Source: Kitasatospora sp. NBC_00374 (GTDB lineage: Bacteria; Actinomycetota; Actinomycetes; Streptomycetales; Streptomycetaceae). From it: 64,000 nt of DNA. The stretch covers positions 3,162,001 through 3,226,000 of the forward strand of contig NZ_CP107964.1 in NCBI RefSeq assembly GCF_041434935.1, read 5' to 3'. The position numbers and the translations under genes are program-made. The notes below the pieces were generated by a model that made no database searches, was not told where the DNA came from, and was given only the letters and a program-made list of their open reading frames with translations. This document shows, one piece after another, positions 36,254 through 45,199 of this stretch (position 1 is the stretch's first letter; each line of letters begins with the position of its first letter).

Positions 36254-36263
36254 TGAAAGATTG

Positions 36264-36381
36264 TTCGGCGGCGTCCTACTCTCCCACAGGGTCCCCCCTG
36301 CAGTACCATCGGCGCTTTGAGGCTTAGCTTCCGGGTTCGGAATGTAACCGGGCGTTTCCCTCACGCTATGACCACCGAAAC
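36264..36381 (-). rRNA. rrf: 5S ribosomal RNA
   Basis: About 118 nt. On the minus strand it begins GTTTCGGTGGTCATAGCG and contains CCGAACCCGGAAGCTAAGCC and GTGGGAGAGTAGGACGCC, the canonical actinobacterial 5S elements. The ends are set by pairing of the terminal stem and may be off by a few nucleotides. Confidence 0.95.
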
Positions 36382-36466
36382 ACTATGAAACTGTCAACCG
36401 CACCAGTCATGTGACCAAACCTGGCTGGGGTCGTTGTTTCAGAACAACACAGTGGACGCGAGCAAC

Positions 36467-41396
<4,930 letters not shown>

Positions 41397-44877: not shown

Positions 44878-44944
44878 ACAGGGCCGTCCGAACGGACGGC
44901 CCTGTGGTCCTGCGTGAGGGGTGGCCGTCCTAGGACGGCCACCC
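44878..44944 (-). promoter_or_regulatory. Tryptophan attenuator (four-segment leader)
   Basis: Minus-strand order: segment 1 GGGTGGCCGTCC (44944-44933), segment 2 GGACGGCCACCC (44930-44919), segment 3 ACAGGGCCGTCCG (44905-44893), segment 4 CGGACGGCCCTGT (44890-44878). Segments 1:2 and 3:4 pair perfectly; 3:4 is a 13-bp terminator hairpin with a 2-nt loop. Segment 2 can pair with 3 over GGACGGCC to form an antiterminator. The single Trp codon of the leader peptide (44941-44939) lies in segment 1, so a stalled ribosome would free segment 2. A T-rich stretch after the terminator is weak (GCGTTTCC). Confidence 0.88.
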
Positions 44945-44977
44945 GCTCAGGCGGGACGAGAGATGCGGGGGCTTCAT
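44930..44977 (-). CDS. trpS leader peptide (15 aa)
   Basis: Short reading frame MKPPHLSSRLSGWPS followed by TAG. The only Trp is codon 13, immediately before the stop and inside attenuator segment 1. No Shine-Dalgarno sequence precedes the ATG; the predicted transcription start is within a few nucleotides of it, so translation may be leaderless. The role would be sensing charged tRNA-Trp; the peptide itself need not have a function. Confidence 0.8.
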   Translation of the reverse strand: MKPPHLSSRLSGWPS

Positions 44978-44986
44978 GGTGGCGAT

Positions 44987-45015
44987 GGTATGTCGCCGGC
45001 ACGGTCCGGTGTCGA
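44987..45015 (-). promoter_or_regulatory. Predicted trpS leader promoter
   Basis: TCGACA (-35; 45015-45010) and CATACC (-10; 44992-44987) with a 17-bp spacer on the minus strand. The transcription start is predicted at about 44978-44981, at or just before the leader ATG at 44977. Confidence 0.6.
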
Positions 45016-45199
45016 GGCGTTTTCGGTGCGACGGGCGGACGGCCGCGTGGCAGGCGGGGGACGGTGGCGCGGCCGGCGGCGACGCGGCGCACGGCGCGCG
45101 AAGGCGCTTTCGGAGCGTCAGCGGACCGGCGGCCCTTGGCCGCTCGCACTCCGGTGGGGCAGGATCGTCGCTGTCCAGTACACGGAGGGCCTCGCCACC

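Follow-up and report, generated by a model that had tools for sequence, protein, structure and literature searches.

A Predicted Tryptophan Attenuator of Known Kind, with an Unusual Stall Site, before an Auxiliary Tryptophanyl-tRNA Synthetase Gene of Kitasatospora sp. NBC_00374

Described Attenuators and Auxiliary Synthetases

The attenuator of the enteric trp operon is built from a leader peptide that has its Trp codons in tandem and is served by a normal ribosome binding site, followed by RNA segments 1-4, in which the pairings 2:3 and 3:4 compete with one another. Vecchione and Sello reportedly found trpRS1 (SCO3334) of S. coelicolor to be under attenuation as well. A candidate classical attenuator was predicted in 2005 before trpS2 of S. 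avermitilis (PMC1262725), and TrpL2, a leaderless attenuator with one Trp, was described in 2021 before trpS SLIV_21110 of S. lividans TK24 (PMC8079986). Publications on the enzymes present SGR_3809 of S. griseus as an auxiliary indolmycin-resistant enzyme (review, PMC6804068), give TrpRS1 as indolmycin-resistant (a further review, PMC9437257), and state that the chuangxinmycin cluster was found via a potential resistance gene trpRS (PMC12087186). A literature search of mostly open-access coverage returned no description of the leader of the synthetase clade treated here (type K), and its absence from print is not claimed.

The locus compared with these systems lies on the minus strand of a window of 64,000 nucleotides (the whole stretch analysed; contig NZ_CP107964.1, positions 3,162,001 to 3,226,000), in which a leader at 44878-44977 precedes trpS. 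With the enteric trp operon it shares the leader peptide, segments 1-4, and the competition of 2:3 with 3:4, whereas it has one Trp codon and probably a leaderless start. It resembles TrpL2 in its short, predicted leaderless peptide with one Trp (MMTRTCTQLWRAA in TrpL2), its hairpins, the poor U tract, and the auxiliary trpS that follows, and it differs in the synthetase clade, the peptide, the pairing word, and the place of the Trp codon, which is -4 in TrpL2 and -3 in the window. A one-Trp leader is not new, as TrpL2 has one too. With S. coelicolor trpRS1 the locus has in common an auxiliary synthetase, a leader, and probable WblC control, but we infer SCO3334 to be of type C while the window gene is of type K. 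The likeness to S. avermitilis trpS2, compared by description only, is that of a predicted classical attenuator before a streptomycete trpS.

Judged from its sequence, the switch in the window is a conserved Trp attenuator of an already known kind, with a stall site that is unusual in this strain, and the probability that a ribosome-mediated transcription attenuator controls the auxiliary tryptophanyl-tRNA synthetase is put at roughly 85%. A short ORF carries Trp in or next to segment 1, and mutually exclusive helices are conserved, 1:2 less strongly. The trp-operon-type attenuation proposed in the initial annotation is therefore well supported by both anatomy and comparison; two attributes that it had been given, the trpRS1 identity of the gene and the economical design of the leader, are not, for the reasons set out below.

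Anatomy of the Leader and Its Promoter

Inspection of the minus strand bears out the proposed leader peptide of 15 sense codons with one Trp codon, read from the ATG at 44977 to a TAG ending at 44930, and the Trp codon (44941-44939) does fall within segment 1 (44944-44933). The four segments are all present as first annotated, with perfect complementarity in 1:2 and 3:4 and an alternative 2:3 pairing over GGACGGCC/GGCCGTCC (Table 1). The stem of the terminator, previously given as 13 bp, has 12 bp and a 4-nt loop, since a 13th pair would close a loop of 2 nt, and it is followed by a weak U tract with 3 T in 10 nt (CGCGTTTCCC). Folding, which had been suggested as a check, gave -68.7 kcal/mol for the leader RNA as compared to -40.9 +/- 3.7 kcal/mol in 200 shuffles (z -7.5; 0/200 as good), and the stalled and stop states differ in 2:3 in the switch model described below. 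An Rfam search of the leader region, with the T-box model included, yielded no family match.

Table 1. Features of the trpS locus, in window coordinates
Feature	Position	Strand	Basis
GAAAAC, WblC/WhiB7-type box (GAAAWY), 3 nt upstream of the -35-like hexamer	45019..45024	-	predicted from motif and spacing
TCGACA, -35-like hexamer, 19 nt before the -10 box	45010..45015	-	inference
TACCAT, -10 box, 7 nt before the leader start codon	44985..44990	-	sequence and relatives
Leader peptide ORF, MKPPHLSSRLSGWPS, ATG to TAG	44930..44977	-	sequence; tail conserved among relatives
GGG (Gly12); first Trp codon TGG at the same place in the nearest relative	44942..44944	-	leader comparison
TGG (Trp13), sole Trp codon, predicted stall site	44939..44941	-	sequence and switch model
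Segment 1, GGGTGGCCGTCC, pairs with 2	44933..44944	-	sequence, folding, helix measurement
Segment 2, GGACGGCCACCC, pairs with 1, or over 44930-44923 with segment 3	44919..44930	-	sequence, folding, comparison
Segment 3, ACAGGGCCGTCC, pairs with 2 or 4	44894..44905	-	terminator and helix comparison
Segment 4, GGACGGCCCTGT; 3:4 is a 12-bp terminator, then weak U tract	44878..44889	-	terminator and helix comparison
Outer extension of hairpin 1:2, arms 44957-44946 and 44918-44907	44907..44957	-	folding; weaker support on fixed columns
trpS, auxiliary TrpRS II-like tryptophanyl-tRNA synthetase, GTG start, 336 aa	43784..44794	-	profile, structures, tree

The -10 box lies 6-7 nt before the ATG, and a leaderless transcript that starts at or beside the start codon is thus predicted. 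The distance is 6 nt (60) or 7 nt (59) in 119 of the 119 distinct leaders that pass a filter of 4-9 nt, to which the count refers, and two further leaders (L069 and L090) are without an exact TANNNT. The motif and spacing of the WblC box in the window are as described in PMC7157823, which also gives S. coelicolor trpS SCO3334 as a WblC target. In the 181 leaders that have 100 nt of upstream sequence, there are 15 occurrences of GAAAWY, every one between -50 and -41, which means that the full box is absent from most leaders; GAAA occurs 40 times in that interval and 12 times elsewhere, and AAA peaks at the same place. Under translation stress, the promoter is probably activated further through the putative WblC-type box.

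Conservation of the Leader and Its Helices

The initial annotation had made its reading depend on conservation in related genomes, and both the leader peptide and the segments are kept in relatives. Within the window's genus, 68 of 70 genomes encode a type K synthetase (E 1e-80 or better) and 69 of 70 have a match to the covariance model of the leader, one of these (G058) being an orphan leader, and in the family the model matches in 152 of 394 genomes (E 0.001). The leader is present at 146 of the 148 window-type loci collected first, and at 78 of 80 named loci (the best 80 of 351), where the carriers span Streptomyces, Kitasatospora, Nonomuraea, Microbispora, Actinomadura, Actinoplanes, Saccharopolyspora, Kutzneria, and others; at two Streptomyces loci with a window-type trpS (L099 and L107) it was looked for in the 700 nt upstream and is absent. 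The peptide mostly ends in WWPS, or in WWRS plus one residue, and its N-terminal part is variable. Ten family matches that had been picked as odd or weak comprise six that precede a type-C trpS, one orphan leader, and three (L188, L195, L196) that were rejected as leaders, being terminators without trpS or leader.

The orphan leader of G058 (L187, G058:C6:201067-201164, also L296) encodes MHLSSCQSWWRSW and is a strong model match, with no trpS downstream or in the 19.9 kb around it, the one trpS of that genome being located elsewhere; this candidate orphan attenuator may be a relic or a small RNA. In L204 (121-219; G126), the usual stop codon TAG is replaced by CAG and the ORF continues through segment 2, the model match being 80.6 bits.

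Positions in the peptide were compared over 183 distinct leaders, a set that leaves out L204, with its changed stop codon, and six type-C rows, and in which a wrong start was taken for L258 (spacing 9). Two Trp codons are found in 174 of them and one in 9, and in 181 there is a Trp at -4 from the stop. Consistent with a constraint on these codons that acts on the RNA, they are nearly fixed behind the Trp pair: Pro-Ser is CCGTCC in 71 of 73 leaders and Arg-Ser is CGCTCC in 97 of 97. These data bear on a different explanation, in which the leader would be a general translation-stress sensor or an arrest peptide under the control of WblC and slow translation, with Trp being incidental. The WblC-type box in the window, the enrichment of such boxes at the same place in relatives, and the report of SCO3334 as a WblC target (PMC7157823) speak for it, but a Trp that holds its place while the rest of the peptide varies, together with a constraint directed at the RNA, makes this explanation quite improbable.

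Pairing was measured on leaders reduced for redundancy: 144 leaders less 25 duplicates left 119, of which L109 was left out because its terminator stem was under 7 bp, leaving the 118 that also entered the switch model, and after removal of 77 near-identical ones and of L149, whose terminator was mis-picked, the initial 41 became 40 diverse leaders. In these 40, helix 2:3 is paired in 99.1% of cells as compared to 22-61% in slid controls; one of its pairs changes from GC to AU in 13 leaders, which gives 13 compensatory cells (a count of sequences, not of events), and two more pairs vary, AU/GU and CG/UG. Helix 3:4 is paired in 99.7% of cells and mostly invariant. Helix 1:2 with its outer arms is paired in 70.5% on fixed columns, partly because the WWRS class has a bulge, and its covariation is near that of shuffles. 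The outer arms fit their own partners better than swapped ones, 0/2000 permutations being as good in each of the two classes, a result possibly inflated by the relatedness of the leaders. RNAalifold found little covariation and recovered only 3:4 and part of 1:2.

The layout is kept with other pairing words in two distant copies. A leader on a Microbacterium plasmid (MNFNRSAWWWLR) has 7, 6, and 12 pairs in 1:2, 2:3, and 3:4 around GGCTGC, and that of G701 (MMIHTAQWWWPTE) has 9, 7, and 10 pairs around GCCGCC, the helices of distant leaders being measured with G-U allowed. Segment 2 seemingly lies inside the ORF in two Rhodococcus plasmids and in Nonomuraea gerenzanensis, where the fit is looser and the helix search gave no clean set. 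Searching for an exact four-fold word was unsuccessful in 5 of 6 distant leaders, and model R1 did not recognize the Microbacterium and Rhodococcus leaders. Since no leader is seen at trpE of the strain's own genome and R1 scores there are at chance level only, trpE is of no use as a control Trp attenuator.

That such ORFs can occur by chance is evident from a scan of both window strands for ORFs of 8-25 codons that are preceded by TANNNT at a distance of 6-7 nt and have a Trp among their last 5 residues; besides the trpS leader, it gave one further match, located at 37159 within the 23S rRNA gene. A plain terminator next to a chance ORF, with no regulation, is nonetheless scarcely credible at trpS, where the ORF, the place of its Trp, the promoter spacing, and helix 2:3 are all conserved.

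Proposed Switch and the Shifted Trp Codon

In the attenuation model, the ribosome is assumed to mask 13 nt, counted from where the A-site codon begins, and the mask length was also varied. At a 13-nt mask, 4 or more pairs of 2:3 remain in 117 of 118 leaders with the ribosome stalled at the first Trp codon and in 0 of 118 with the ribosome at the stop codon, and in whole leaders at least 7 pairs of 3:4 are formed in 116 of 118. The window leader keeps at least 4 pairs of 2:3 at masks of 9-15 nt and fewer than 2 from 16 nt. In the free RNA of some leaders (L060, L068), 2:3 outcompetes 1:2.

According to the mechanism proposed on this basis, transcription would start at or beside the leader start codon, with the WblC-type box probably adding to promoter activity in translation stress. 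When Trp-tRNA is plentiful, the ribosome would reach the stop codon and cover segment 2, and 3:4 would terminate transcription. When charged tRNA-Trp is scarce, either from starvation or from an inhibitor of the housekeeping enzyme, the ribosome would stall at Trp13 in segment 1, which would allow 2:3 to pair and RNA polymerase to read into trpS. With no ribosome present, 1:2 and 3:4 would form and transcription would stop. The trpS product, whose active-site residues differ from those of the housekeeping type, would then keep tRNA-Trp charged when the housekeeping enzyme is blocked.

The window leader departs from its relatives in the place of the stall. It is the only one of the 183 whose sole Trp stands at -3; of the other eight single-Trp leaders, seven keep -4 (WRPS) and L202 has its Trp at -5. 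The nearest relative, L003, reads TGG TGG where the window reads GGG TGG, and the GGG at codon 12 gains one pair in 1:2. The initial annotation had seen an economical design in the single Trp codon, which does not agree with Trp-Trp in the relatives and a sole Trp at -3 in just 1 of 183 leaders; the single Trp is better read as what was left when the first codon of a conserved Trp pair was lost. Only one base separates the GGG from the TGG of L003, as it would if the single Trp were a base error of the assembly and the strain had Trp-Trp like its relatives, but the genome consists of 3 contigs at 100% completeness and the peptide differs from that of L003 elsewhere too, and an error of this kind is very improbable.

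With the first Trp lost, the stalled ribosome would stand 3 nt further on, and the antiterminator may be weakened. A stall at -3 instead of -4 leaves 5.9 rather than 8.1 pairs of 2:3 at the 13-nt mask and 1.6 rather than 5.9 at 16 nt, whereas no difference is seen at masks of 9-11 nt. These losses, and a sole Trp at -3 found in this leader only, are what would be expected of a switch that is an attenuator by descent but is poorly induced, with trpS mostly off or governed by its promoter. Such a decayed state is considered rather unlikely, given that the difference vanishes at the shorter masks, that trpS, the promoter boxes, and the segments are intact, and that a stall at the second Trp in WWPS relatives brings the same loss. 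For the attenuation reading, the strain offers a natural variant whose stall site has moved by one codon, in which the rule for the position of the stalled ribosome is directly testable, and the 183 distinct leaders make up a large natural set of a minimal attenuator that places a probably leaderless start, one or two Trp codons, four segments, and a terminator within about 100 nt.

The Type K Synthetase

The trpS product fits TIGR00233, and its nearest relative among solved structures is TrpRS II (2a4m, 1yi8), which is presumably that of D. radiodurans and has the GDRPTG and ADxQ motifs in common with the window enzyme, from which it is separated by a long branch. Its closeness to TrpRS II, the GDRPTG motif, and Gln in place of His43 together mark it as TrpRS II-like. 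The strain's own genome has a second trpS, 38% identical. A tree of 30 rows separates type K of the window, together with TrpRS II, at 100/100 from the housekeeping type (H), type C, and the Geobacillus enzyme, with long branches flagged and H not forming one clade.

The claim that the gene is of the trpRS1/SCO3334 type does not hold in this tree, in which it belongs to the separate TrpRS II-like clade. The clade of SCO3334 would be C, on the ground that type C trpS genes are preceded by TrpL2-like leaders (L286: MTTRTCTQLWWAA); the exact peptide of S. lividans TrpL2 matched in 0 of 394 genomes searched by pattern, and the clade was identified by near matches. The suggested comparison with leaders of trpRS1 genes did reveal a similar attenuator in this SCO3334-like clade.

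At three places that presumably matter for indolmycin, numbered by a Geobacillus sequence, His43 is replaced by Gln, Gln107 by Thr, and Gln9 by Arg in 11 of 11 sampled K enzymes, and His43 and Gln107 are kept in 6 C and 11 H rows. The number of trpS copies is 1-3 in 40 genomes that were chosen and are not a random sample, with three copies in G305 and G126. The trpS (L290, 9668-10654) of G004, the sole member of the window's genus with no leader match, does not exceed 39% identity with the K, C, and H rows in the comparison, and no Trp leader was found at it; it is perhaps a further synthetase type.

Auxiliary Status, Genomic Surroundings, and Plasmids

In a sample of the phylum, type K was found in 35 of 396 genomes (E 1e-85), 32 of them outside the class Actinomycetes, and in 11 of 11 tested genomes outside the class no trpS besides it was found. 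Of the 32 loci outside the class, 27 were examined, and 0 of these 27 has a WW leader together with a -10 box; at L308 and L312 there are Trp-containing ORFs in which one or the other of these two features is missing. A Collinsella record, 58% identical, has no such leader either, and by this similarity the type K genomes outside the class are probably Coriobacteriia. G701, a member of the Actinomycetes with two trpS genes, has a WWW leader. With the leader absent where K is the sole synthetase and present where it is auxiliary, its occurrence tracks, as a correlation, auxiliary status. Outside the class, the loci L306-L333 except L327, together with L302, encode an ADYQ-type synthetase with Gln at the His43 place, mostly as the sole TrpRS where tested, and this residue would predict a natural tolerance to indolmycin-like inhibitors.

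A nearly identical arrangement of leaderless promoter and Trp attenuator in two deeply separate lineages of auxiliary TrpRS raises the tentative idea, held at somewhat less than even odds, of a portable cassette that was exchanged between non-orthologous resistance genes or arose twice before them, that is also present on plasmids and not found where K is the sole TrpRS, and whose stall site is shifted by one codon here. The arrangement suggests that, in two lineages and on some plasmids, a likely resistance synthetase is switched on when its own product is lacking; from induction of this kind combined with carriage on plasmids it would follow that tolerance to TrpRS inhibitors may be both inducible and mobile among actinomycetes.

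An rRNA operon (36263-41395) lies downstream of trpS in the window, and one lies upstream, in divergent orientation, at 5 of 6 type-C loci examined (L286-L289, L297). Replacement at one locus is not supported, given that the operon lies on opposite sides of the two types and that the K and C loci have no further neighbour in common except for a 29% ABC-transporter match. Window-type trpS genes are also present on 10 records filed as plasmids, the carriers including Streptomyces sp. Mut1, Microbacterium sp. No. 7, and the two Rhodococcus plasmids. All four of the plasmid genes L298, L299, L300, and L301 have Trp leaders, and the plasmid trpS of Microbacterium sp. No. 7 adjoins an IS21 transposase.
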